A stretch of 64,000 bases of DNA from Amaricoccus macauensis (GTDB taxonomy: Bacteria > Pseudomonadota > Alphaproteobacteria > Rhodobacterales > Rhodobacteraceae), in contig NZ_JACHFM010000002.1 of assembly GCF_014201905.1 (NCBI RefSeq), positions 930,001 to 994,000 of the forward strand, written 5' to 3'. The translations under genes and the position numbers were made by a program. Position 1 is the stretch's first letter. The number at the start of each line of letters is the position of its first letter. Positions 7,009-38,975 of the stretch are shown here, one piece after another. Under the pieces are notes generated by a model. That model worked only from the letters and a program-made list of their open reading frames with translations. It had not been told where the DNA came from and did no database searches.

Positions 7009-7653
7009 CTACTTCGAGATACCGGCCGCCATGCGCCGTTCCAGGTGGCGGCCATAGAGCGACAGCGGCCAGCACATCAGGAAGTACATCACGCCGACGA
7101 TGCCAAAGACCACGAGCGGTTGGTAAATCTGGTTCGCGACGATCACCCCGGCCCGCGTCAGTTCGATGAAGCCGACGATCGCGGCGAGCGACGTGCCCTT
7201 CAGAAGCTGCACGAGGAACCCGACCGTCGCCGGCAGGGACAGCTTGAAGGCCTGTGGCAGGAGGATGTCGACCATCCGGCTCCGCGACGGCAGGCCAAGC
7301 GCCTCGGCGGCCTCGGTCTGGCCCCTCGGCACCGCCTGGATCGCCCCACGCCAGATCTCGCCGAGATAGGCAGAGGCGTGCGCGGTCAGCGCGAACGCCA
7401 CCGCCGCCCAGGCCGGTACGTCGAAGCCGAAAAGCGGTAGTCCGAAGTAAACCACGAAGAGCTGCATGAGCAGCGGCGTGCCCTGAAAGAGGCCGATCCA
7501 GCCGATCGCCGGAATGCGCAGCCACGGGCTCTTCGAGACGCGCATCAGCGCGACAAGGAGGCCGAAGGCGATGCCGCCGGCGAAGCCCACTGCCGTCAGC
7601 ACCAGCGTCCAGCGGAGGCCCTCCAGGAGGTAGGTGAATTCGAGCGTACCCAT
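7009..7653 (-). CDS. ABC transporter permease, His/Glu/Gln/Arg/opine type
   Basis: 214 residues from ATG 7651-7653. An inner-membrane permease with about five hydrophobic segments and the family coupling (EAA) loop GQTEAAEALGLPSRSRMVDILLPQAF, quoted in part: GQTEAAEALG, then ILLPQAFK. It ends 9 bases before the ATPase and starts 11 bases after the other permease. The two permeases form the heterodimeric channel. An internal GLFQGTPLLMQLF segment is typical of the HisM/GlnP branch. Confidence 0.93.
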   Translation of the reverse strand: MGTLEFTYLLEGLRWTLVLTAVGFAGGIAFGLLVALMRVSKSPWLRIPAIGWIGLFQGTPLLMQLFVVYFGLPLFGFDVPAWAAVAFALTAHASAYLGEIWRGAIQAVPRGQTEAAEALGLPSRSRMVDILLPQAFKLSLPATVGFLVQLLKGTSLAAIVGFIELTRAGVIVANQIYQPLVVFGIVGVMYFLMCWPLSLYGRHLERRMAAGISK

Positions 7654-8327: not shown

Positions 8328-9169
8328 CCCGCGGCCCCCGCGCTGTCGTCCTCGTCCCAAACCGGAGCCCAGGGAAGGTTCGACAGCCGCTCGCCGCGCG
8401 CCAGTCCGAAAATCGCGGCCATCTCCGCCTCGCTGAGCTCGAAATCGAAGATATCGAGGTTCGCGCGCATGTTCTCGACGCGGGACGAGCGCGGAATGGC
8501 GCCCACATTGTCCTGCTGGATCAGCCAGCGCAGCGTCACCTGCGCGGCAGACTTGCCATGCCGGCGGCCGATCTCCTGCAGAAGCTCGCTCTGAAACACC
8601 TTGCCACGGGCGATCGGCTGGTAGGCGTTCAGCAGCATGTCGGCACGGCGCATCCGCGCGAGGAGCTTCGCCTGCGAGAGATACGGGTGGTACTCGACCT
8701 GATTGCAGAAGAGATCGGCCTTGTGGACGTCGAGCGCCTCGTCGAGCAGCGGCACGGTGAAGTTGCTGACCCCGATGAGCCGGGTCCGCCCCCGAGCCTT
8801 CTCATCGGCGAAGGCCGCCAGGGTCTCGCCGAGCGGCACATCGCGCCCCGGCCAGTGGACGAGGAGCAGGTCCACCTGGTCGAGCCCCAGACGTTCGAGA
8901 CTCTCGCTCACGCGCTGATGCACCCGCTCGGGCGCGAGATCGTCGTACCAGATCTTGGTCGTCACGAAGAGCTCGCCCCGGGGCACGCCCGCGGCGGCGA
9001 TGGCGCGGCCGACCTCGGCCTCGTTGCCATAGCGGATGGCGGTGTCGATCTGGCGATAGCCGATCTCGATCGCGGTCCGGATCGCTGCCTCACCGTCCGG
9101 GCCGGTGAGTTCGAACGTTCCGAAGCCGAGCGCCGGGATCGCCTCGCCGCGGATAGTCTTCTCGATCAT
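8324..9169 (-). CDS. aldo/keto reductase
   Basis: 281 residues from ATG 9169, which follows a GAGGGGG ribosome site; ATG 9202 would add 11 residues. An NAD(P)H-dependent TIM-barrel oxidoreductase with the complete tetrad Asp42 and Tyr47 (IDTAIRYGNE), Lys72 (TTKIWYD) and His105 (LLLVHWPG), plus GVSNF, NQVEYHP and the cofactor loop IPRSSRVENM. It sits between the dehydrogenase and the transporter genes, so it probably reduces or oxidises a carbonyl intermediate of the imported compound. The substrate cannot be read from sequence. Confidence 0.9.
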   Translation of the reverse strand: MIEKTIRGEAIPALGFGTFELTGPDGEAAIRTAIEIGYRQIDTAIRYGNEAEVGRAIAAAGVPRGELFVTTKIWYDDLAPERVHQRVSESLERLGLDQVDLLLVHWPGRDVPLGETLAAFADEKARGRTRLIGVSNFTVPLLDEALDVHKADLFCNQVEYHPYLSQAKLLARMRRADMLLNAYQPIARGKVFQSELLQEIGRRHGKSAAQVTLRWLIQQDNVGAIPRSSRVENMRANLDIFDFELSEAEMAAIFGLARGERLSNLPWAPVWDEDDSAGAAG

Positions 9170-23072: not shown

Positions 23073-25080
23073 ATGACAAACAAGCCCAACCCAGTCCCTT
23101 CAGTGGCAGGCAGGCGCGCTTCTCCCCTCGCGGCGTCCGCGACATCCGTCCCGGACTACGACGAGCGTGCAACGATGGGCGCGTGGGAGCAACTCCTCGC
23201 CGGCTCGGCCGACCAGGCCCCGGCATGTCAGGTGCGCTCGCTCATTGGTGACAGCTGGCAGCGATGCGCCCACGGCGGCATCGACGCCACCCAGGGCGAA
23301 GCGCCCATGACCGAGGACCGCGACCATCGCGAGGCCCTCCGCCAGTCGAGCGCCGACCTGCTCGCCGCCGCCCAGCGCTCCTTCGCCAGCATCGGCACTT
23401 TGCTCGAAGGCACTGGCGCCATGCTCGTCCTCGCCGACAACGAGGGCGTCCTCGTCGAGACGATCGGCGACAAGCGCACCCTTTACGATGGCATGGACAT
23501 CCATCTCGCGGTCGGTGGCAAGTGGACCGAGGATGTCGTCGGCACCAACGGCATAGGCACAGCGCTCTTCGCCGGCGAGCCGGTCTTCGTGCACGCGGCC
23601 GAACATTTCTGCGCCGGTATCAAGGGCTGGACCTGTGCTGGCGCGCCAATCCGCGACCCCCTCGACGGCCGCATCGTCGGCGTGGTCGACCTGTCCGGCC
23701 ATCCGGGGATCTTTCGCCCGCACAACACCGCCCTCGTCGCGGCGGCCGCGCGCGAGATCGAGAAGGCCCTTGCCGAACAGCAGAGCGAGGAACGCTCGCG
23801 CCTGCTCGAGGCGTTCATTGCCTCCGCACCCCACTACCGCCGCTCCGACGGCCTGATGATCCTCGATCGCCGGAGCCGTCCGATCTACTGCACGAACATC
23901 CCCTGCGAGGTCGCCGGACGCTTCCCGCTCAAGACCTGCGCCGCGCACGTCCCGTCGCCCACCAACCCGAGCGGATTTCTCGACGACGTGACCCGCGCGC
24001 TGCCGCCTGACATGAGCGGATGTCACCTGACGCCGCTGAAGCTCGACGGCAGTCTGCGCGGCGCGGCCCTGGTCCTGCCGGCCGGACGCACCCGCGCAAG
24101 GAATGGGCGCGCCGACCCGGTGGCCGAGGCCGCAGCCATCATCATCGGCAGCAGCCCGGCAATCCGTGAGGCGGTCGAGATCGCCACGCGGATCGCGCGC
24201 AGCCCCGATGTGCCGTCGCTTCTCGTCGAAGGCGAGACCGGCGTCGGCAAGGAACTTTTTTTCCCGCCTCGCCGGAAGCGCGCGGCCCGCCGATCGCTAC
24301 ATCGCCGTCAACTGCGGCGGCATCACCCGCGAGCTGATCGGCAGCGAGCTCTTCGGTCACGTGGCCGGTGCCTTCACCGGTGCCACGCGCGAGGGCAAGC
24401 CGGGTGTCTTCGAGCTTGCCAACGGTGGCGTGCTCACCCTCGACGAAATCGGCGAACTGCCGCTCGACATCCAGCCGTTCCTCCTGCGGGTCCTTGAGGA
24501 TCGCGCGGTGCAGCGCATTGGCGAGGCCCGGGCGCGACCGGTGGATGTGCGTCTCGTCGTCTCGACGAACCGCGACCTGCGCGCGGAAGTCGACGCCGGC
24601 CGTTTCCGCCGGGATCTCTACTACCGGATCGGCGCCGTCGCGCTCCGGGTGCCGCCGCTGAGGGAGCGGGGCGATGACGCGCTGATGCTCCTGGAGTACT
24701 TCAACGCCGTCGCCTCGGAGCGCAGCGGCCGCGACCGGCTCGAGTTCACGCCGGAGGTGCTCGACGCGCTGCGAAGCTACCGCTGGCCCGGCAATGTCCG
24801 TGAGCTGAAGAACCTGGTCGAGCGGCTGCACGTCCTGGCGAGCGGCCCGGTCCGGCTGATCGATCTGCCGCCGGACATTCTCCAGCCGGTTGCCGTGCCC
24901 GAAGCGCCACCAGCACCTGCGGCCGTAACACGCCTCGAGGATGCCGAGCTCGTCACGCTGAAGAACGCGCTCGAGGCGGAGCAGGGCAATCTGACCAGAG
25001 TTGCCCAGCGTCTCGGCATTTCCCGGCCGACGCTCTACCGCAAGCTCGACCACTACGACATCCGCCGCACGTTCCGCTGA
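23073..25080 (+). pseudogene. sigma-54-dependent activator (AcoR/MimR type), frame broken at a T7 run
   Basis: One protein in two frames. The first frame has an N-terminal sensory region with a GAF-like core (ADNEGVLVETIGD and GTNGIGTALFAGEPVFVHAAEHF as landmarks, residues about 120-190) and Walker A GETGVGKE. It then runs out of frame after T7 at 24256-24262. The second frame continues exactly with RYIAVNCGGITRELIGSELFG, the sigma-54 contact motif [42 protein letters not shown] and a Fis-type helix-turn-helix (RVAQRLGISRPTLYRKL). Removing one T gives 668 continuous residues, the normal family length. Related activators (AcoR, BmoR, MimR) control acetoin, butane and propane genes. It faces groEL, the end of the monooxygenase cluster. 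Confidence 0.88.
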
Positions 25081-28862: not shown

Positions 28863-29927
28863 TCAGACCGAGATGGCGACCTTGAGAACGCCGTCCCGCT
28901 GGTTCGCGAAGAGGTCATACGCCTCCTCGATCTGGTCGATGGAGTAGCGGTGGGTCACGAGGGGCTTCAGGTCGACCCGGCCGGAGGCGATGACCGACAT
29001 CATCCGCCGCATCCGCTCCTTGCCGCCGGGGCAGAGCGCGCTCTTGATCGTCTTGTCGCCGAGACCGGCGGCATAGGCGTCGAGCGGGATCGTCAGATCT
29101 CCCGAGTAGACGCCGAGGCTGGAGAGCGTGCCGCCCGGGCGGACAACGCGCAGGCCCGCCGCGAAGGTGGCCTGGGTGCCGAGCGCCTCGATCGCCACGT
29201 CAACGCCGCGGCCGTCGGTCAGGGCCATGATGGCTTCGACCGGATCGGTCTCGCGGAAGTTGATGACCTCGTCGGCGCCGAGCTGGCGGGACATGGACAT
29301 GCGCGCGGCGACCGCATCGACGGTGATGATGCGGGTGGCGCCGAGGAGCTTCGCCCCGGCCGTGGCGCAGAGGCCGATCGGGCCTTGGGCGAACACCGCG
29401 ACGGTATCGCCGATCTTGATGCCGCCGTTCTCGGCACCGGCGAAGCCCGTGGACATGATGTCCGGGCACATCAGGACTTCCTCGTCGGTGAGGCGGTCGT
29501 CGATGGGCGCGAGGTTCGCCATGGCGTCCGGCACCCGGACGAATTCGGCCTGGCAGCCGTCGATCGTGTTGCCGAACTTCCAGCCGCCGATCGCCTGCCA
29601 ACCGTGTTTGGTGCCGGCGCCGTCCTGGCTGCAGAAGCCGCAGAGACAGGCGTTGGACCAGCCGGAGGGCGTGATGGCGCCGGCGATCACCCGCTGGCCT
29701 TCGGTGAAGCCCTTCACCTCGGAGCCGAGCTTCTCGATGATCCCGACCGGCTCGTGGCCGATCGTCAGCCCCTTCGCCACCGGGTACTCACCCTTCAGGA
29801 TGTGGATGTCGGTGCCGCAGATAGTGGTGGTCGTGACCCGGATCAGCGCGTCCTGCGGGCCGATGTCGGGGACGGGCTTGTCGTCGAGGACGATGCGGCC
29901 CTTTTCAACGAAGATCGCGGCTTTCAT
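28863..29927 (-). CDS. adh1: secondary alcohol dehydrogenase (propan-2-ol to acetone)
   Basis: 354 residues from ATG 29925-29927, preceded by GAAGG at 8 bases; an in-frame ATG at 29978 lacks a good site. It closely follows the Thermoanaerobacter/Clostridium secondary alcohol dehydrogenase pattern. Zinc ligands are Cys37 (TICGTDIH), His58 (TIGHEPVG) and Asp156 (CPDIMSTGF), with no four-cysteine structural zinc site. Other marks are AIGGWKFGNTIDG, FAQGPIGLCATAGAKLLGAT (nucleotide fold) and ALCPGGKERMRRMM. Subterminal attack of the monooxygenase on propane gives propan-2-ol, so this enzyme supplies the next step. It follows prmD after a terminator-like hairpin. Confidence 0.92.
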   Translation of the reverse strand: MKAAIFVEKGRIVLDDKPVPDIGPQDALIRVTTTTICGTDIHILKGEYPVAKGLTIGHEPVGIIEKLGSEVKGFTEGQRVIAGAITPSGWSNACLCGFCSQDGAGTKHGWQAIGGWKFGNTIDGCQAEFVRVPDAMANLAPIDDRLTDEEVLMCPDIMSTGFAGAENGGIKIGDTVAVFAQGPIGLCATAGAKLLGATRIITVDAVAARMSMSRQLGADEVINFRETDPVEAIMALTDGRGVDVAIEALGTQATFAAGLRVVRPGGTLSSLGVYSGDLTIPLDAYAAGLGDKTIKSALCPGGKERMRRMMSVIASGRVDLKPLVTHRYSIDQIEEAYDLFANQRDGVLKVAISV

Positions 29928-30000
29928 CTTGCCGGCCTTCGCCTTCCTGGAGTTGCCGGCGAGCGTAGAGGAGTCCATCTATGCATTCCCGATGGGGGGT

Positions 30001-31508: not shown

Positions 31509-32585
31509 CTAGTGGGACCGGGCCGGCTCGAGCTGCCCCGGTGAAGCGCTGGAGGAAGTGGTGAAGCGGTCGAAGTGGATACGCTCGGTCTCGAAGCCGC
31601 CCATGAAGAGGATCGGCTCGAGCGCGTCGATCATCGGCGGTGGCCCGCAGGCGTAGACGTCGCCTTCGCCGTCGATGTCGAGCTCCTTGAGCTTGTCGGC
31701 GACACGCTCGTGGACAAAGCCCCGTGCCCCGGTCCATTCGTCATCGTCATCGGCATGGCTGAGGACGGGGATGAAGTGGACGGACGGATTGGCTTCCGTC
31801 AGGGCCGCGATCCTGTCCAGATAGAACAGGTCGCGTTGGGTACGCGCGCCGTAGAAGAAGTAGACTTCGCGGTCCTCGCCGCTGGCCACGTGATCATGCA
31901 GGATCGACCAGACGGGCGAGAGCCCCGAACCCGCGGCCACCATCACGATGGGTCCTTCCCGGTCTTCCCGCCGGAAGCAGGTTCCGTACGGTCCGACGAC
32001 GGTGACGGCTGCACCGGTGCGGATTCCGCCGGAGTCGAGCTCGCCGGAGAACTTTCCTTCGGGGTACTTCTTGATGATGAAACGCAGGGTTTCGGTTTGC
32101 TCCGGCGTATTTGCCATGGAAAACGAGCGCGTAATCGTCTCCCCTTCTTCGGTGGTGACGGTGATGTCGACATATTGTCCGGCCCAGAACTTGATCGGCG
32201 CATCGAGCGCGATGGCAATTCCCCGGATGTCATGGGTGAGAGTGTCGATCTCCGAGATGCGGCCCTCGTAGCTCTTGACCGCAATGGATTTCGACAGGAT
32301 TTCCTCGTCGTAGTTGAGGAGTTCCACTTCCATGTCGGAGTAGGCAATCGACCGGCAGAGCAGGATATGCCCGCTGTCGCGCTCCATGTCGTTGAGCGCG
32401 AAGGTCGAATACTTCAGCAGGTCGACTTCGCCCTCGTTCAGGATACACTTGCAGGCCGAGCACTGACCCTCCTTGCAGCCGTGCGGCAGGGCGATGCCCT
32501 GACGAAAGGCCGCATTGAGGACCGTTTCACCGTCCTCGACCTCGAATTCGACGCCGACCGGCTCCAGGCGGACCGTGTGAGTCAT
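31509..32585 (-). CDS. prmB: propane monooxygenase reductase
   Basis: 358 residues from ATG 32583-32585. It carries electrons from NADH through FAD to a 2Fe-2S centre and then to the hydroxylase. The N-terminal plant-type ferredoxin domain has Cys37, Cys42, Cys45 (HGCKEGQCSACKC) and Cys77 (HILLCRS). The FAD domain has TRSFSMANTP; the NAD domain has VAAGSGLSPVWSILHD and ends with DVYACGPPPMIDALEP. The length matches MmoC/PrmB. A longer frame upstream to 32795 is not used, as it overlaps prmA and lacks family sequence. Confidence 0.94.
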   Translation of the reverse strand: MTHTVRLEPVGVEFEVEDGETVLNAAFRQGIALPHGCKEGQCSACKCILNEGEVDLLKYSTFALNDMERDSGHILLCRSIAYSDMEVELLNYDEEILSKSIAVKSYEGRISEIDTLTHDIRGIAIALDAPIKFWAGQYVDITVTTEEGETITRSFSMANTPEQTETLRFIIKKYPEGKFSGELDSGGIRTGAAVTVVGPYGTCFRREDREGPIVMVAAGSGLSPVWSILHDHVASGEDREVYFFYGARTQRDLFYLDRIAALTEANPSVHFIPVLSHADDDDEWTGARGFVHERVADKLKELDIDGEGDVYACGPPPMIDALEPILFMGGFETERIHFDRFTTSSSASPGQLEPARSH

Positions 32586-32620
32586 TCCCTTTGCCTCGTT
32601 TCCACTTCTTCCCCGCCCCC

Positions 32621-32730
32621 TCCCCGCGGATGTGCGGGGAAGGTCTTTTCGGTTGCTGACTTCGGATGCTGGTGGGGCGGGTTGCTTGCCTGCCCCTTGG
32701 TATTGGCGGGGTGGGTGTGACACCCACCCC
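32621..32730 (-). other. two hairpins in the prmA-prmB intergenic region
   Basis: The 154-base gap holds TCCCCGC/GCGGGGA around GGATGT (32621-32640) and GGGGTGGGTGT/ACACCCACCCC (32708-32730, almost no loop). Neither is followed by a T-run on the minus strand, so these are probable mRNA processing or stability elements rather than terminators. Confidence 0.6.
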
Positions 32731-32739
32731 GGGGGGTCG

Positions 32740-34410
32740 TCAGTTGCAGGGCTTGATCGTGAAGCCCGCCTTGTACTCGGCGATGTGCGCCTCACGTGCC
32801 TCGGGGGTCATTTCCCGAAGGATCGTGAGCGGCGAGAGCAGCGTGTTGCCCTTCACGTCGTCGAGGGTCCACATCTCCTTGTCGTCGAAGCGGAGATGCG
32901 GCTGCGGGATCAGGGTCTTGCCGTCAGACCGGACGAAGTTCAGGTCCTTGATCGCATCGGCCAGATCCCAGCCGTGATAGAGCGTTTCCCACTCGCGCTT
33001 GCCGGAGAAGCGGCCCATCGCCGGCGTCGGCCGGCCCTGGTACTCACCGGAGAACGCTTCCACCGCCGTCCAGCGATCGAGCTCGTGGGCGAAGGTGTGG
33101 ATCTGGCCGTCGATCTCGTCGACCACCATGTCCTCGCGGATGAGGCAGGGAACGAGGCAGGACCAGCAGCGGTGCGGGTAGACGTAGCCCGTGTCCTCGC
33201 CGGCGAAGGTGATGACCTTCTGACCGCGGTGGCTGAGCTTGTCGTACCACTTCCAGAAGTCGCCGAACTGCGCGTACCAGCCCGGATACTTGTGCTCGAA
33301 CCACTCGAAGTCGGCGTCACGCTGCGCCTCGATCCGCCAGAAGTTCACCGGCCAGCCCACCGCGAAGAACTGGGCGACGGTGTGGACGTAGAACTTCTTG
33401 GTGATGCGGTTCCACGCCTCGTGGACGTCGTCGTGGTGCACCTTCACGCCGTACTTCTCGAGCGGCAGCATGTAGGTCCGGTAGTAGTCCTCGAAGATCC
33501 ACCGGTGCCACATTTCCGCGTAAGATTCCTTGTTCTTGTCGCGGTTGGTGGTGCCGTACTCGATGAACGTGCCGATGGCGGCGTCGACGATCGCGTGGTT
33601 CTGCCAGAAGGCATACCGCAGGTCGCGCTCGAGAAGCAGGTGGTTCTCCGGCTCCTTCAGGGCGGCCATGAGCAGCGAGTGGCCGTTGCCGATGTGCCGG
33701 CTCTCGTCGGACTGCACCGACAGGAACACGGTCGGCAGCGCGTAGTCGCCGTTACGGGCGGCTTCCGACGGCATGGCGACGAAGAGCGTGTTGGTGAACG
33801 CGGTCTCGGCGACCACGGTCAGGTACATGCACGCGGCGGTCATAGTGTCGCCGGTGATGAAGCCCTCGCCGAACTGCCGGCCGATCGTGGTGGCGTAGCA
33901 CTTGCCGAAGGCTTCCTCGGTGATGTCGAAGCCAGCCGGGTCGATGTAGTTCTCCATGTACCACTTCTTCAGGTTCATCTGAATCGTGGAGTGGCGGAAC
34001 TCGTCGACCATCTGCATGGTGAAGCCGGTGCGCAGATCCTCGCCCGGCGCCAGACGGGCGACCATGGCCATGGAGCGCGCCGCCGAGATTTCCGGGAACG
34101 GGATGATCGCGAGGAAGAGCTTCATCCACTCGACCCAGCGCGGTTCCACGTTGCGGAACATGTCGCCGCGAAGCGCCGCGTCGAGGGCGCCGTAGACCCG
34201 GTTGTCCTTTTCTTCCTGCATCGGGAAGTAGGAGCGCAGGACCTGCTTCATCGGGTCGCGCGGCGCCTTGGCGATCTTGTAGTCGGTCGGGAAGGTATTC
34301 GCTTCCTGGACGTAGGTGGGCTGCCACCCGAGGTCCGAGATCCGCTTGGTCGCCTCGCCAACCGGGATGCCCCGTTGCGAGGTGATCTTGTTGAGCGTCA
34401 ATGACGTCAT
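32740..34410 (-). CDS. prmA: propane monooxygenase hydroxylase large (alpha) subunit
   Basis: 556 residues from ATG 34408-34410, preceded by GGAGG at 10 bases. This is the catalytic subunit of a soluble di-iron monooxygenase, inserting oxygen into propane or related short hydrocarbons. All six iron ligands are visible: Glu107 (FPEISAARS), Glu137 and His140 (VDEFRH), Glu202 (VAETAFTN), Glu236 and His239 (SDESRH). Their 30 and 34 residue spacings equal those of methane monooxygenase MmoX. Sequence such as GYVYPHRCWSCLVPCLIRED is typical of the PrmA/MimA (group 5/6) branch. A near-perfect sigma-54 promoter lies 253 bases upstream. Natural substrate could also be acetone, phenol or other small molecules, as in MimA enzymes. 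Confidence 0.94.
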   Translation of the reverse strand: MTSLTLNKITSQRGIPVGEATKRISDLGWQPTYVQEANTFPTDYKIAKAPRDPMKQVLRSYFPMQEEKDNRVYGALDAALRGDMFRNVEPRWVEWMKLFLAIIPFPEISAARSMAMVARLAPGEDLRTGFTMQMVDEFRHSTIQMNLKKWYMENYIDPAGFDITEEAFGKCYATTIGRQFGEGFITGDTMTAACMYLTVVAETAFTNTLFVAMPSEAARNGDYALPTVFLSVQSDESRHIGNGHSLLMAALKEPENHLLLERDLRYAFWQNHAIVDAAIGTFIEYGTTNRDKNKESYAEMWHRWIFEDYYRTYMLPLEKYGVKVHHDDVHEAWNRITKKFYVHTVAQFFAVGWPVNFWRIEAQRDADFEWFEHKYPGWYAQFGDFWKWYDKLSHRGQKVITFAGEDTGYVYPHRCWSCLVPCLIREDMVVDEIDGQIHTFAHELDRWTAVEAFSGEYQGRPTPAMGRFSGKREWETLYHGWDLADAIKDLNFVRSDGKTLIPQPHLRFDDKEMWTLDDVKGNTLLSPLTILREMTPEAREAHIAEYKAGFTIKPCN

Positions 34411-34662
34411 CGTCAAAAAGCCTCCACCCGTTGCGCCGGCAGCCCATGGCTCCGGCTATCGCGGCGTCGTGCGCCGCCAGTTTCTCGCTCTCGAGCGGCA
34501 GCCCGGTCGGGGGCCGTCGTTCGGTGGATCCGGCAAAGGTGTCGCGCATCCCGGAGGTTTTCGTGGGCGGGCTTCTCAGCCAGCAGTCGTGACCCGGTCG
34601 CGTTTCCTTCGTTCTTGTGGCACCGGGCAGACTTCCCGATGGGCTTGTTCTGCCGGATACCA

Positions 34663-34678
34663 TGCAATTGCCGTGCCA
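34663..34678 (-). promoter_or_regulatory. sigma-54 promoter of prmABCD
   Basis: On the minus strand, TGGCAC GGCAA TTGCA, a perfect match to the -24/-12 consensus TGGCAC-N5-TTGCW, preceded by T and followed by TGG. Start of transcription is expected near 34651, leaving about 240 bases of 5' leader before prmA. A sigma-54 activator is encoded at the far end of the cluster. Confidence 0.92.
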
Positions 34679-34750
34679 AGTTGAGAACGTGCGAAAACGT
34701 GTCCCAGGAGCGTGGCTTCCGGGCAACCCCGTCCACATCCCGGGTCCGGA

Positions 34751-34780
34751 CGTAACGTTTCGTTACATGTGTAATTTACA
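34751..34780. promoter_or_regulatory. candidate enhancer (UAS) array for the sigma-54 activator
   Basis: Four half-sites of the TGTAAC type in 30 bases: GTAACG and CGTTAC forming a perfect inverted repeat around TTT (34752-34766), then TTACA TG TGTAA (34763-34774) and TGTAA T TTACA (34770-34780). The array lies about 75-100 bases upstream of the -24 box, the normal place for activator binding. Assignment to the AcoR/MimR-like protein is inference. Confidence 0.6.
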
Positions 34781-34794
34781 GTTGTTGCGTGGAC

Positions 34795-34820
34795 AGTAAT
34801 TTTGCGGACGCAAAATTACT
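34795..34820. repeat. perfect 26-bp palindrome between divergent units
   Basis: AGTAATTTTGCG, GA, CGCAAAATTACT: two perfect 12-base arms with a 2-base centre, in AT-rich sequence standing out from the GC-rich surroundings. A loop of two bases makes an RNA hairpin less likely than a dimeric protein-binding site. It lies between prmA and the 144-residue gene at 34899. Confidence 0.8.
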
Positions 34821-34835
34821 TGTGCGGGTGCAAAA
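34803..34835. repeat. phased direct repeats TGCGGnnGCAAAA
   Basis: TGCGGACGCAAAA (34803-34815) and TGCGGGTGCAAAA (34823-34835) are identical at 11 of 13 positions and spaced 20 bases apart, close to two helical turns, so bound proteins would lie on the same face. The first copy overlaps the centre of the 26-bp palindrome. Confidence 0.7.
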
Positions 34836-34898
34836 CAGCTATCTGGACAACCGCACATCCCGGCGTATCTACTCGCGACGCACTCGGGGAGCCCCGCC

Positions 34899-35333
34899 AT
34901 GCCAGAGACCCCCTCACCCCAGGACGTCACCGCCGATCTGGTCCGCCTCATGCCACGGGACGCAGTTTTCATGCTGCGCTTCCTCGGCGAAAGCCAATTG
35001 CGCCTGCAGCGGCATTTCCATGACTTCATCGAGGCCGAGCTCGCGCGCAACGGCGTCACGCCCGACAGCCATCCGATGATCCATGGCTTCATCGAGACTC
35101 ACGCGCGCACCTTGCGCGACTTCGTGTTCGCGGGTCTTTCCATGGCGCATCAGGTGCGCTTGCCGGAGATGGAGCGGCTGACCGGCGACGCGACGTCCCT
35201 TCTCAGCGTCGACGTGTGGGACGCGCTGCGCACCCACATCGAGATGGCCGAACGACAATTCCGCACCCAGGCGCCCGGGCTGCCCGATCAGCTCGATGGC
35301 TACCGGACACCGGAGCCGCGCGACGGGTCCTGA
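34899..35333 (+). CDS. hypothetical all-helical protein next to the propane monooxygenase
   Basis: 144 residues with GGGGAG ahead of ATG 34899. Predicted mostly helical, no signal peptide or membrane span, unusually rich in histidine (RHFHDF, HPMIHGFIETHARTL, MAHQ, RTHIEM). I do not recognise a family. It is divergent from prmA across a heavily patterned 488-base regulatory gap, so it is probably co-regulated with the monooxygenase. A metal- or haem-binding, sensory or scaffolding role would fit, but nothing in the sequence proves it. Confidence 0.75.
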   Translation: MPETPSPQDVTADLVRLMPRDAVFMLRFLGESQLRLQRHFHDFIEAELARNGVTPDSHPMIHGFIETHARTLRDFVFAGLSMAHQVRLPEMERLTGDATSLLSVDVWDALRTHIEMAERQFRTQAPGLPDQLDGYRTPEPRDGS

Positions 35334-35360
35334 GAGGCATTGTCGCCCGGCCGGCGCCGA

Positions 35361-35624
35361 CTACTGCTTCCGGCCGCCGCCGGGCCAGAGGGCGAGCCAC
35401 GCCGCCGGATCGGTGCGAAGCGTCCGGTGCGTGGCCTCCATGAGCGCCAGCCGATCGGCCTCCGGCAGCGCCCGGAGCGCGTCCTCCGCCGCCCGCACCG
35501 CGTCCGGCGCCGGGTCCAGTGCGGCGGCGGCCAGCGCACCGGTGCAGGGATGCTCCGCGCCGAGACGCGCCTCGGCCGCGGCATGGAGGGCGGTGAACAT
35601 CACCCGTCCCGCATTGTCGAACAT
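35361..35624 (-). CDS. small hypothetical protein
   Basis: 87 residues from ATG 35622-35624, preceded by a strong GGAGGAG site. Helical and Ala-rich (MFTALHAAAEARLGAEHPC, ALRALPEADRLALMEATH), with a C-terminal WLALWPGGGRKQ. No known domain recognised. It converges with the 144-residue gene and is divergent from the WD40 gene, whose sigma-54 promoter begins 16 bases beyond its start. Confidence 0.68.
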   Translation of the reverse strand: MFDNAGRVMFTALHAAAEARLGAEHPCTGALAAAALDPAPDAVRAAEDALRALPEADRLALMEATHRTLRTDPAAWLALWPGGGRKQ

Positions 35625-35639
35625 GGTCTCCTCCCGAGT

Positions 35640-35655
35640 TGGCCCGCGATTTGCG
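35640..35655 (+). promoter_or_regulatory. sigma-54 promoter of the WD40/65-aa gene pair
   Basis: TGGCCC GCGAT TTGCG, with T before it, keeps the invariant GG-N10-GC spacing and all but two consensus bases of TGGCAC-N5-TTGCW. The start site would be near 35667, 35 bases before ATG 35702, with a GGAGG ribosome site between. Confidence 0.7.
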
Positions 35656-35701
35656 TCTCCGCTGGTACGCGCCGTGCCGACGCGCTCCGAGGAGGACCGC
35701 C

Positions 35702-36781
35702 ATGAATGACCAGAGCAACCGGGCACTCACGCTCTTCGATCTCATCGCCCGTTGCTGGCAAACGGGTGATGCCGTGGCGGAGGCGCGTTTCGCCGCCGAC
35801 GGCACCGCGGCTTTCGCCACGTCCGGCGGGGCTGTGCTGATCGCGGGCGCTCCCGACGATGAGCCGCCCGACAGTCGGATCCGCGTGAGCGGCGACCTCG
35901 GGCAGACGACGATCCGGCCGCGCGAGCGCGATCCCGCGCCGCTGGCCGCCGTGACCGATCTCTGCGACGGGGTGCCGGCCTTCGCCGCGGCGGGCACCGG
36001 GTTTCTCGCCGGGACGGCGGGCGGCCGGGTGCTGCGCCTCGATGGCGCTGGCACGGCCACGCCGCTCTTCAGTCTCGACGGGCCGGTGGTGGCGCTCGAT
36101 CACGTGGCCGGGATCACCGCCGCGGCGGACGAGCGTGCGCTGGTCACGATGCAGAGCGGCACGGTGCGGCGTCGGGAGATCCCGGGCTTTCGCACCCTCG
36201 CACTCTCGCCGGACGGCCGGCGGCTCGCCGCAGCCAACGCCGCGCAGGTGGTGATCTTCGAGCGTGAGGGGGACGAGACGGTCCCGCTGCGCAACGTCTC
36301 GCGACTCGCCTGGCGCGATGACGGCCGCTGGCTGGCCGCCGCCCTCGGAGCGGACGGGCTCGCGCTCGTCGATGCCGAAGCGCCCGAGCCCGTCCATCAC
36401 CTGCGGAGCTTCCCCGCCGCCGTGCGGAGCCTCGCCTGGAGCCGCCCCGCGAACGCGGTGACCGCGGCGGGTGCGTTCCGCATCGCCGCCTGGGACGCAG
36501 GCGCGCTGCCCTCGACCGAGCAGGCGCTTCTGACCGGCCAGCCGGGGCTCGTCGTTGTCGAGGCCGTTGCGGCGCATCCGGGCCGGCCGCTCGTTGCCGC
36601 CGGCTACGCCAACGGTCAGGTCGTTCTGGCGCAGGTCGGCACGCGCGACGAGCTCCTGCTGCGGCAGGCCGGTGCCGCCATCACCTGCCTCGCCTTCTCG
36701 CCGGACGGACGTCACCTGGCGATCGGCGACGCGAGTGGCGCGGCGGCAATCGCAACCTTCCCGCGCAACATGTTCAAGTAG
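35702..36781 (+). CDS. WD40/beta-propeller repeat protein
   Basis: 359 residues from ATG 35702 (GGAGG upstream). Repeated blades of about 40 residues are seen, for example FRTLALSPDGRRLAAANAAQ, VSRLAWRDDGRWLAAALGAD, VRSLAWSRPANAVTAAGAFR and ITCLAFSPDGRHLAIGDASG, giving about seven blades. No signal peptide, so cytoplasmic; such propellers serve as protein-interaction scaffolds. It has its own sigma-54 promoter and is followed 12 bases later by a 65-residue protein. A partner of the oxidation system is plausible, although no link is described that I know of. Confidence 0.85.
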   Translation: MNDQSNRALTLFDLIARCWQTGDAVAEARFAADGTAAFATSGGAVLIAGAPDDEPPDSRIRVSGDLGQTTIRPRERDPAPLAAVTDLCDGVPAFAAAGTGFLAGTAGGRVLRLDGAGTATPLFSLDGPVVALDHVAGITAAADERALVTMQSGTVRRREIPGFRTLALSPDGRRLAAANAAQVVIFEREGDETVPLRNVSRLAWRDDGRWLAAALGADGLALVDAEAPEPVHHLRSFPAAVRSLAWSRPANAVTAAGAFRIAAWDAGALPSTEQALLTGQPGLVVVEAVAAHPGRPLVAAGYANGQVVLAQVGTRDELLLRQAGAAITCLAFSPDGRHLAIGDASGAAAIATFPRNMFK

Positions 36782-36793
36782 GAGGAGATTCTG

Positions 36794-36991
36794 GTGAGCA
36801 CCGACACCGCCAACGCGCCCGCCACCCTGACCGAGGAAGAGCTGAGCAAGGACGCGTTCTTCACGCGTCTCGGCGATCTCTCGCAGGAAATCGTCGCGGC
36901 ACACGGGCGCGACTTCGCCATGGGCGCACTGGTCCTCGCGGCCCGCTGGATCGCAGAGGGCCGGCTCGGAGGCGAGGAAAAGCCGCACTGA
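36794..36991 (+). CDS. 65-residue hypothetical protein in the WD40 operon
   Basis: Starts at GTG 36794 with a strong AGGAGGAG site 5-12 bases upstream and 12 bases after the WD40 stop, so translation is likely. Helical, with an amphipathic core DFAMGALVLAARWIAEGRLG that could line a binding surface or dock on the propeller. No family recognised. Too small for an enzyme. Confidence 0.7.
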   Translation: MSTDTANAPATLTEEELSKDAFFTRLGDLSQEIVAAHGRDFAMGALVLAARWIAEGRLGGEEKPH

Positions 36992-36993
36992 GA

Positions 36994-37260
36994 CTACCCC
37001 GGGCGCGAGCCCTCGTAGATCAGGCAGATGGTGCGGAGCGTCGAGGCAAAGTTCGTCGCTCCGCCCTCGAACTCGGCGGACTCCTCGTGGAGCGCCGCGA
37101 TGAGTTTCGGCGTGGTGACCCCCTGACGCTCGGCCATGGAGTCGAGCACCGCCCAGAACGCCGCCTCGAGCTGGATGCTCGTGGCGTGACCGCCGATCCT
37201 GAGGGACCGGCTCACGCGCTGGAAAGGTCTCGCACCGGCGCTTGCAATCAATCCGCACAT
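36994..37260 (-). CDS. ribbon-helix-helix (RHH_4-type) protein
   Basis: 88 residues from ATG 37258-37260; a TTG eight codons earlier is possible. The pattern SRSLRIGGHATSIQLEAAFW followed by VLDSMAERQGVTTPKLIAAL and FASTLRTICLIYEG matches the RHH_4 family common in alphaproteobacteria. The beta-strand/helix/helix order suggests a DNA-binding dimer, although direct regulation has rarely been shown for this family. It lies downstream of the alcohol dehydrogenase at 37328-38380 on the same strand (67-base gap), so it may be in that sigma-54 transcript. Confidence 0.82.
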   Translation of the reverse strand: MCGLIASAGARPFQRVSRSLRIGGHATSIQLEAAFWAVLDSMAERQGVTTPKLIAALHEESAEFEGGATNFASTLRTICLIYEGSRPG

Positions 37261-37327
37261 CCAGCCCACCCCTTTCCATGACAAGTGAGGCGACCGCCGC
37301 GGCGGCCGCCCTCTCCGTGACGAGGCG

Positions 37328-38380
37328 TCAGGGGATCAGCACCGCGCGGCCGTGGATGCGGCCGGCGTTCAGGTCCTGGAGCGCCTTGTTGGCGTCGGCA
37401 AGCGAGTAGTCCACGGTCGTCAGGTTCACCAGCCCGCGGTCGGCCAGCGCCATCAGCTCGACGAGCTCGGCCCATGTGCCGACGAGATTGCCGATGATGT
37501 TCTTCTCGGTGATCACCATGTCAACGGTCGGAACGACGATGTTCTCGCCGTAGCCCACCACGTAGTAGCTGCCCATGCTGCGGGTCATGGCGAGGCCCTT
37601 GGCGGTCATGCCCTTCTCGCCGACGAAGTCGATGACCGCCTCCGAGCCGAGCCCGCCGGTCAGCGCAAGCAGTGCCTCGACTTCGTTGCCGTCCGCCTTC
37701 ACCAGCTTGTCGGCGCCGATCTTCTCGGCGAGCTTCAGGGAGTCGTCGGACTTGTCGACGACGATCACGTCCGCCGCGCACATGGCCTTCAGGCACTGGA
37801 TCGCGATGTGGCCGAGGCCGCCCGCGCCGATCACCACGACGCTCTCGCCGGGCAGCAGGTGCCGCGTTGCCTTCTTCACCGCACGATAGGCGGTAAGGCC
37901 GGCGTCGGCGTAGGGGGCCACCTCCTTCGGCGCCAGCGTCTTGGGCAGGGCGACGATATTGCGCTCGGACGTGGACAGGTACTCGGCATATCCGCCATTG
38001 GAATCGAGCCCGGGGAACGTGCCCGGCCCGTGCATGTCGTGGCCGCGACGGCAGGCGAGGCAGGTGCCGCCGGAGATCTTCGGGTGGACGATCACCGGGT
38101 CGCCGACTTTCAGGCCTTCGACCTCCTTGCCGATCTCCTCCACCCAGCCGGCGTTCTCGTGCCCCATGATGAGCGGCAGGAGATGATGGCCGTCCGGGTC
38201 CATGTGCGGCTTCCACACGCCCTCGATGATGTGGAGGTCGGTCCGGCACACGCCGGCGCCGCCGATCCGCACGATGACGTCGGTCGACTTCTCGATCTTC
38301 GGATCCGGGACATCCTGCAGCGTCACCCACGAGTCGGCCGTGAGCTTCTCGTCATACTGGTTCAGGACCTGGGCCTTCAT
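37328..38380 (-). CDS. NAD-dependent zinc alcohol dehydrogenase
   Basis: 350 residues from ATG 38378-38380, with GGAGG 9 bases upstream. MDR-family enzyme with catalytic zinc ligands in GVCRTDLHI and IMGHENAGW. The structural-zinc loop is reduced to CLACRRGHDMHG. The nucleotide fold is VVIGAGGLGHIAIQCLK, with Asp in VVDKSDDS favouring NAD. It differs clearly from the secondary alcohol dehydrogenase at 28863. A sigma-54 promoter sits 40 bases upstream, so it is probably induced with the monooxygenase and could take propan-1-ol or another product alcohol. Confidence 0.92.
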   Translation of the reverse strand: MKAQVLNQYDEKLTADSWVTLQDVPDPKIEKSTDVIVRIGGAGVCRTDLHIIEGVWKPHMDPDGHHLLPLIMGHENAGWVEEIGKEVEGLKVGDPVIVHPKISGGTCLACRRGHDMHGPGTFPGLDSNGGYAEYLSTSERNIVALPKTLAPKEVAPYADAGLTAYRAVKKATRHLLPGESVVVIGAGGLGHIAIQCLKAMCAADVIVVDKSDDSLKLAEKIGADKLVKADGNEVEALLALTGGLGSEAVIDFVGEKGMTAKGLAMTRSMGSYYVVGYGENIVVPTVDMVITEKNIIGNLVGTWAELVELMALADRGLVNLTTVDYSLADANKALQDLNAGRIHGRAVLIP

Positions 38381-38419
38381 CACGCGATTCCTCCGTTGCG
38401 TGGTCATTGCCCGTATTCA

Positions 38420-38435
38420 AGCAAGCACCATGCCA
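38420..38435 (-). promoter_or_regulatory. sigma-54 promoter of the second alcohol dehydrogenase
   Basis: On the minus strand, TGGCAT GGTGC TTGCT, one base off the TGGCAC-N5-TTGCW consensus and preceded by C. Transcription would start near 38408, 28 bases before the ATG, leaving just room for the ribosome site. Confidence 0.85.
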
Positions 38436-38710: not shown

Positions 38711-38806
38711 TCAGATTGACGCCCAGTCGCTGAACTTCACCCCGACAGGGGGCTTCGGCGCCGGCTTCTGCGGTGCCGCTGGCGGCTTCTTTTCGCCACG
38801 ATCCAT
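38711..38806 (-). CDS. 31-residue ORF, proline/lysine-rich
   Basis: An ATG-started frame with GGAG 11 bases upstream encodes 31 residues: a charged start (MDRGEKKPP), a Pro/Ala/Lys middle (AAPQKPAPKPP) and a distinct end (VGVKFSDWASI). The codons fit the genome's use. It lies in the 620-base gap (38381-39000) between the alcohol dehydrogenase and the DUF3072 gene, which otherwise holds only the sigma-54 promoter and scattered half-sites. Whether it is translated is unknown. Confidence 0.35.
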   Translation of the reverse strand: MDRGEKKPPAAPQKPAPKPPVGVKFSDWASI

Positions 38807-38828
38807 CACTCAGTACTCCGGTCTAGAG

Positions 38829-38975
38829 CGTTACCCCGCGGTCCGGCCACGGTCCGTGTAACATACTCGTCCTCGACCGCGGTTTCAGGACCGTGGCAGG
38901 CGTTGTAACGAACATCTCATCGGATGTGTCCTTGAGGCAACGCGGCGGAACCCTGAAGCATCGTGAAGCGTTACA
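38829..38975. promoter_or_regulatory. dispersed TGTAAC/GTTACA half-sites
   Basis: GTTAC at 38830, TGTAAC at 38857 and 38904, and GTTACA at 38970, spread over 147 bases upstream of DUF3072 and 400-540 bases from the second alcohol dehydrogenase promoter. They repeat the half-site seen in the prmA enhancer array. The spacing is irregular, so binding by the same activator is uncertain. Confidence 0.35.

Follow-up and report, generated by a model that had tools for sequence, protein, structure and literature searches.

Putative sigma-54 promoters and a probable conserved leader RNA element in the propane monooxygenase island of Amaricoccus macauensis

Introduction

Sigma-54 control of alkane monooxygenases is already known. 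In mycobacteria MimR is an AcoR-type regulator that responds to acetone, and mimABCD, a GroEL-like chaperonin gene and an AcoR-type activator gene lie together in one cluster. The same set recurs in the stretch of DNA analysed here, a 64-kb window (positions 930,001 to 994,000 of contig NZ_JACHFM010000002.1) inside the 4.83-Mb genome of Amaricoccus macauensis; unlike the mycobacterial cluster, however, it also holds a second zinc alcohol dehydrogenase gene (adh2), genes for a ribbon–helix–helix (RHH) protein, a WD40 protein and a 65-amino-acid (65-aa) protein termed p65, and a conserved leader RNA, and its activator gene is frame-broken in the assembly. Three sites in this island, here called P1, P2 and P3, read as sigma-54 promoters, and we consider it probable that they wire a single mim/prm island of the group 5 diiron monooxygenase type through at least two activators. 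If true, three testable parts would be added to the assembly and switching of the pathway: a module of WD40, coiled-coil and p65 proteins linked to the enzyme, an alcohol dehydrogenase with an activator of its own and a leader RNA with covarying pairs.

The names mimABCD, mimR and groEL are those used for mycobacteria (PMC8394569). The one actinobacterial relative checked, a Rhodococcus locus (L164), has neither WD40 nor p65 and no sigma-54 site scoring at least 7. The BmoR/Pbmo system of Thauera butanivorans (PMC8784404) likewise places a sigma-54-dependent activator over a soluble diiron alkane monooxygenase, but belongs to a different diiron monooxygenase group; for the prm entries of Rhodococcus and Mycobacterium the same source gives Fis-type regulators, from sequence analysis only. 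Group 5 propane monooxygenase (PrMO) clusters drawn for gas-seep metagenome-assembled genomes and Methylocella (PMC9213486, PMC7660913) share with the window an amidohydrolase, an iron–sulfur assembly protein, a chaperone and a transcriptional regulator, and in the parts of the literature examined the list of group 5 components stops there, at enzyme, chaperone, few auxiliary proteins and regulator. The Methylocella tundrae plasmid locus (L163) differs from the window in being without WD40, p65, adh2 and the leader element, yet upstream of prmA a sigma-54 site is retained. In Clostridium beijerinckii, too, sigma-54 and a specialised activator are described as controlling alcohol dehydrogenase genes (AdhR/SigL; PMC7017808), although these are solvent-production genes of an unrelated phylum and the resemblance is one of logic only. 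Within the open-licence literature no match joined propane monooxygenase and WD40, and WD40 occurred in none of the matches on diiron monooxygenases and WD40; propane monooxygenase was likewise in none among the listed matches on leaders and riboswitches, which says little.

Three sigma-54-type sites in 3.77 kb

P1 lies on the minus strand at 34663–34678 (TGGCACGGCAATTGCA), agrees with the consensus at 8 of 8 scored positions and would serve the mimA/prmA operon; P2, on the plus strand at 35640–35655 (TGGCCCGCGATTTGCG), stands before the WD40-p65 pair and is the least supported of the three; P3, on the minus strand at 38420–38435 (TGGCATGGTGCTTGCT), precedes adh2 and possibly also serves the RHH gene. 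The distance from the 16-mer to the start codon is 252 nucleotides (nt) for mimA, 46 nt for WD40 and 39 nt for adh2. An initial annotation of this DNA had reported −24/−12 elements at these places, and direct reading of the sequence agrees for all three. It had also stressed their strict GG-N10-GC spacing, which is present in each case but weak as evidence: such pairs occur 1,516 times on the two strands of the window, so that the spacing alone is no argument. Only five of these pairs score at least 6 of 8 on the consensus, namely P1, P2, P3 and two without TTGC.

Chance levels were gauged with simpler patterns. The window contains five copies of TGGC-N7-TTGC where shuffled sequence averages 1.78, and a count of five was reached in 5 of 100 shuffles; the whole genome contains 231, and 158 of the reversed pattern. 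At this genome-wide density 0.18 sites would be expected per 3.77 kb, against the three found (Poisson P of at least three about 0.0009, a post hoc value). A narrower pattern, TGGCMYG-N4-TTGC, has 20 copies in the genome against 6 for its reverse; P1, P2 and P3 are three of the 20, a count that is descriptive only because the pattern was drawn from the same three sites. The genome encodes RpoN, the sigma-54 protein itself (PF04552 at C1:1500617, E 5e-57). With the comparisons given below, P1, P2 and P3 are supported as sigma-54-type promoters, P2 the least. Elsewhere in the genome (G000) two more TGGCACG-N4-TTGC sites, at C1:383868 and C2:882966, each have a gene for a sigma-54 activator nearby in divergent orientation.

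Conservation of P1 and P3

The comparison set comprised 80 mimA loci from relatives (L numbers below denote loci, G numbers genomes), many of them Mesorhizobium and hence related sequences rather than independent ones. A site scoring at least 6 of 8 is found 170–330 bp before mimA in 76 of the 80, against 0.5% of shuffles, and a perfect score is reached in 57 of 80 against none of 40,000 shuffles; the loci that score below 6 are L030, L043, L044 and L046. For P3, 20 of 23 adh2 orthologues (counted at 75% identity or more) carry a site scoring at least 6 within 100 bp, located 42–54 nt upstream; the figure for shuffles is 0.3%. Of the remaining three, L068 reaches 5 and L025 and L044 at most 3. 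More distant loci also present a sigma-54 site before adh2 (L157 at 7140, L161 at −60, L160 at −54). P1 and P3 are thus conserved at orthologous genes beyond chance.

Further sites of this type were seen at distant mim operons. The Bradyrhizobium plasmid locus L160 has two perfect sigma-54 sites upstream of mimA, at 7585 and 8655, about 1.07 kb apart with near-identical flanks, an apparent duplication. A sigma-54-like site on the minus strand at 8580 of the Azospirillum locus L162 precedes a run of cytochrome c, VOC and GMC oxidoreductase genes adjoining the mim operon, and one on the plus strand at 6973 of L163 precedes a porin gene, likewise next to the mim operon.

Candidate activators of the island

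The MimR/AcoR-type sigma-54 activator gene occupies 23073–25080 on the plus strand and is broken at a run of seven T residues (24256–24262) in the Walker A region, such that GAF lies in one frame and Sigma54_activat plus HTH_8 in another. These parts share one frame without a stop in all 61 relatives that could be tested (19 of the 80 could not), and the break may be real, in which case P1 may be silent, or an error of sequencing or assembly.

A candidate upstream activating site for MimR, TGTAA-N7-TTACA with one mismatch (TGTAACGAAACGTTACG), is located at 34751–34767 on the minus strand, 72 bp upstream of P1. Counting the window, 65 of 81 loci have this palindrome with zero or one mismatch in the 200 bp preceding the mimA site (about 1.3% of shuffles), most often 50–80 bp before the −24 element, and its position suggests MimR as the cognate protein. 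The whole window holds a single copy, at mimA, and in the relatives none was found within 350 bp of WD40 (0/79) or adh2 (0/23). Three TGTAAC/GTTACA half-sites are present at 38858–38975 of the window, some 420–540 bp upstream of P3; the 640 bp upstream of adh2 in L020 contain none.

In the relatives adh2 faces a separate, divergent AcoR-type activator gene in 21 of 23 loci, two of the 21 being only 38–40% identical to the query; no such gene was found beside adh2 in L020 or L028, and in the genome of the window the closest full-length homologue has 34% identity and is encoded on another contig. A TGTTCA/TGAACA inverted repeat accompanies adh2 in 9 of 23 loci (0.04% of shuffles) and is absent from the 700 bp before adh2 in the window. 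The initial annotation had put all three promoters under one activator of the AcoR/MimR type. This is unsupported, because the MimR-type site occurs only at mimA, adh2 has a divergent activator of its own and the MimR frame in the window is broken; sigma-54 is common to the promoters and the activator probably is not.

The WD40-p65 pair and its probable promoter

By tblastn, WD40 and p65 are both present at 79 of the 80 mimA loci, the sole miss being L096, whose sequence ends 2.8 kb before mimA. Across 390 genomes of the order, the same 12 carry mimA and a strong WD40 match (Fisher P 5e-23; mimA at E up to 1e-100, WD40 at E below 1e-39, at most five WD40 candidates scored per genome, and 9 of 21 genomes set aside for weak generic matches of E 5e-6 to 7e-4). 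A class-wide count with a WD40 profile, again with at most five candidates scored per genome, was not used: it drifted to generic propellers in 55 of 385 genomes, and all matches outside the window started at profile position 59 or later. Two further genomes with mimA among these 385 have p65 and no detected WD40 (G733) or neither gene (G415). Of 21 plasmid records with a mimA relative, six were opened; the Aminobacter and Caballeronia loci carry both genes, and neither was found in those of Bradyrhizobium, Azospirillum, Methylocella and Rhodococcus. The link of the pair to mimA loosens outside the clade of the window.

Gene order adds to this linkage. The Caballeronia locus, from a beta-proteobacterium, has adh2, a 105-aa gene of coiled-coil-like appearance, WD40, p65 and mimA in succession on one strand; G733 has adh2, then CDGSH-like and coiled-coil-like genes, p65 and mimA with its own site, besides a sigma-54 site before adh2 and an AcoR-type gene divergent from it (the coiled-coil and CDGSH labels in both were assigned by eye). 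This collinearity is the best support for the view that adh2 and the small protein belong with mimA. The proposal that WD40, p65 and adh2 form one regulon with mimA accordingly survives in part: membership of the same functional island is borne out by the 79/80 linkage and the collinearity in two lineages, and the common MimR-type activator is not. A gene for a CDGSH-type iron–sulfur protein, again recognised by eye, lies between adh2 and the coiled-coil-like gene in the alpha-proteobacterial locus L157 (8291–8533).

The WD40 protein is modelled as a confident beta-propeller (predicted local distance difference test score, pLDDT, 93.9) and retrieves generic propellers only in a fold search; p65 matches nothing among solved structures, either by fold (best E 3.2) or by sequence. 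A role for the two in assembly or as a scaffold beside the chaperonin is a guess, made because of their linkage to the hydroxylase.

P2 itself is probably a real sigma-54 promoter. The nearest relative, L020, retains TTGGCCCG-N4-TTGC in the same gap beside orf87, with four spacer bases that differ from those of the window. In a wider search, over 200 bp before WD40, 51 of 79 loci contain a site scoring at least 5 (4.7% of shuffles) and 24 contain one scoring at least 6 (0.6% of shuffles). In rhizobial loci a similar site about 138 bp upstream of WD40 is embedded in the coiled-coil gene. Codon usage was examined where the protein motif is present, in 41 of 79 loci, which are related and do not amount to 41 independent events. 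All 41 use TTG for the leucine from which TTGC derives, whereas 22 of the 486 remaining leucine codons in these stretches are TTG. The adjoining aspartate codon varies freely; the leucine column shows no variation at all despite its degeneracy, a property shared with one ATC column. On account of these counts the embedded rhizobial site is no longer read as chance, and the earlier view of the sites near −138 as accidental matches within a coding gene was dropped. The gene orf144 was also considered as a sigma-54 unit and rejected, with a score-5 site in 1 of 70 loci.

A probable conserved leader RNA before mimA

From the position of P1, transcription would start about 12 nt after the −12 element and give mimA an mRNA leader of about 240 nt (34411–34652, minus strand); the distance from the P1-type site to the mimA start codon is 186–314 nt across the 80 relatives. 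A conserved element at 34519–34662 (minus strand) consists of a 5′ hairpin followed by AAGAACGAAGG, which would pair with CCUUUG. Two blocks, AGAACGAAGG and CCTTTGCC, are retained in 79 and 78 of 81 leaders, respectively. RNAalifold, given 40 of the 44 nonredundant leaders (L030, L031, L046 and L057 were excluded as atypical), predicts the 5′ hairpin as well as a helix between the two blocks. In a second alignment of 31 sequences (30 hand-picked from the 44, plus L160) 89.4% of cells are paired under this structure and 33–52% when it is slid, a comparison that favours it because it was derived from the same sequences. All seven hairpin pairs change on both sides, and none of 500 shuffles reaches the covariation score; the block helix shows one compensatory change, in L160 from Bradyrhizobium.

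The element tracks mimA closely. The pattern AAGAACGAAGG-N60-90-ACCTTTGCC is present in 10 of the 390 genomes of the order, each time just before mimA (reversed control, 0); G094 and G369, two of the 12 mimA genomes, are without it. Run on 60 sources, of which three (window, L020, L160) had served as training sequences, a covariance model gives a single match, before mimA, in 54; L157 matches weakly (E 0.31), and there is no match in L057, L158, L161, L162, L163 and L164. In the genome of A. macauensis there is one match, with 150 of 9,555 candidates scored. Rfam 15 returned for 34300–35000 of the window, at E up to 5, a lone match to a miRNA family (17.6 bits, where the gathering score is 99). 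The mimA leader is most likely a cis-acting RNA.

A regulatory scheme and its alternatives

Sequence comparison shows the sites with their conservation, the linkage of the genes, the frame break and the covariation in the leader; from these the scheme that we favour infers transcription, activators, inducers and functions. MimR bound at TGTAA-N7-TTACA about 100 bp upstream would loop to the sigma-54 RNA polymerase at P1, which would drive mimABCD and the genes that follow, and a structured RNA at the 5′ end of the transcript would probably tune expression. P3 would drive adh2 and perhaps the RHH gene, in most relatives beside an adjoining divergent AcoR-type activator gene; the window has no such gene at the usual place, and another enhancer-binding protein would have to serve P3. 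P2 would bring WD40-p65 under sigma-54 as well; in other lineages the pair may depend on a promoter inside the coiled-coil gene upstream, or it is collinear with adh2. The predicted products fit a route in which propane is oxidised to acetone via propan-2-ol; WD40, p65 and the coiled-coil protein would be dedicated accessories that perhaps assemble the oxygenase together with GroEL and the iron–sulfur proteins. A bolder version, which is possible if somewhat doubtful, holds that the mim transcript opens with a new class of cis-acting RNA, confined to the alpha-proteobacterial mim operon, that senses a pathway product or state or binds an accessory protein such as p65, while the WD40, coiled-coil and p65 proteins form a monooxygenase assembly module wired by sigma-54 together with the secondary alcohol dehydrogenase.

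Several observations weigh against the scheme. The relatives counted are not independent of one another, MimR is frame-broken in the assembly, and the inverted repeat proposed for the adh2 activator occurs in just 9 of 23 loci. No WD40 relative was found in L157, L158, L160, L162, L163 and L164. A site scoring at least 5 within 100 bp of WD40 exists in L020 only, 1 of 79 relatives; all 11 further WD40 loci in the order (L101–L111, including the same-genus G369) lack one within 200 bp, and 28 of 79 WD40 loci, chiefly Rhodobacteraceae and some Rhizobium, are without a site over that distance. These last figures would suit a reading, which we regard as rather unlikely, in which P1 and P3 are genuine and P2 is a chance match, WD40-p65 being transcribed from an ordinary upstream promoter as part of the orf144/coiled-coil/WD40/p65 run of many relatives, where WD40 lies closely 3′ of the coiled-coil gene and orf144 lacks a sigma-54 site of its own in all but one of 70 loci. 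In the window, however, the reversed orf87 stands between orf144 and WD40, the −24 and −12 elements are kept in the window and L020 despite a changed spacer, and the embedded rhizobial site is under synonymous constraint.

Alternatively, MimR alone might activate P1, P2 and P3, with remote or degenerate binding sites serving the latter two. All three promoters are indeed within one island, no adh2-linked activator was found in L020, the best full-length homologue in the window's genome is a distant one, and half-sites do occur upstream of P3 in the window; but the upstream site, allowing one mismatch, is missing within 350 bp of every adh2 and WD40 examined and has its sole window copy at mimA, adh2 adjoins its own activator in 21 of 23 relatives, L020 does without the half-sites and MimR in the window is broken, all of which makes a single-activator regulon improbable. 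The leader, finally, could be conserved as DNA bearing protein-binding sites, or as a small coding frame, instead of as RNA structure. Its two strongest blocks are nearly invariant and hence offer little covariation of their own, which speaks for this view. Against it stand the seven of seven hairpin pairs that vary on both sides at a score unmatched in 500 shuffles, the drop in pairing from 89% to 33–52% on sliding, the compensatory change in the long-range helix of L160 and a spacing between blocks that varies widely across alignments, and we think it unlikely. A sigma-54-wired island with at least two activators and a leader RNA remains the reading that we prefer.

Gene content of the island

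The mim genes run on the minus strand from mimA/prmA (hydroxylase large subunit, PF02332; 32740–34410, ATG at 34410), which is 97% identical to its Amaricoccus solimangrovi counterpart, through mimB (reductase with Fer2, FAD_binding_6 and NAD_binding_1; 31509–32795, limits of the open reading frame with the start codon not fixed) and mimC (hydroxylase small subunit, PF02332; 30429–31484) to mimD (coupling protein, PF02406; 30037–30414), which scores 109.6 bits against the NCBIfam MimD cut-off of 150. One gene run thus carries both hydroxylase subunits, the reductase and the coupling protein; the placement in group 5 is based on similarity of PrmA to Methylocella and Rhodococcus relatives, without a tree. 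On the same strand follow adh1 (28863–29978), a zinc alcohol dehydrogenase whose closest solved relatives are NADP-dependent isopropanol dehydrogenases, an amidohydrolase (PF04909; 27816–28838), an iron–sulfur assembly protein (PF01883; 26997–27809) and the GroEL-like chaperonin (PF00118; 25277–26905), beyond which lies the convergent AcoR-type activator.

Divergent from mimA is orf144 (34899–35333, plus strand), which has no Pfam match and a tblastn match at 70 of 80 mimA loci. A perfect inverted repeat, GTAATTTTGC-GGAC-GCAAAATTAC, is situated between the two at 34796–34819 and may be an operator of orf144. The WD40 gene (35702–36781, plus strand, ATG at 35702; PF00400, predicted beta-propeller) is preceded by the divergent orf87 (35361–35624, minus strand), a homologue of which is close to WD40 but oppositely oriented in 16 of 79 loci, and followed by p65 (36794–36991, plus strand), a two-helix protein according to alignment and structure model. 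On the minus strand adh2 (37328–38380, ATG at 38380; PF08240/PF00107) encodes a zinc alcohol dehydrogenase with 1h2b as its closest solved structure and the secondary alcohol dehydrogenase of Rhodococcus ruber among the next; upstream of it, at 38714–38809 on the minus strand, there is a possible open frame of 31 aa, MDRGEKKPPAAPQKPAPKPPVGVKFSDWASI. The RHH protein gene (RHH_4, PF13467; 36994–37260, minus strand) lies 3′ of adh2 on the same strand, and RHH_4 recurs near mim genes elsewhere, adjoining mimR in Azospirillum (L162 at 17634) and Methylocella (L163 at 17637).

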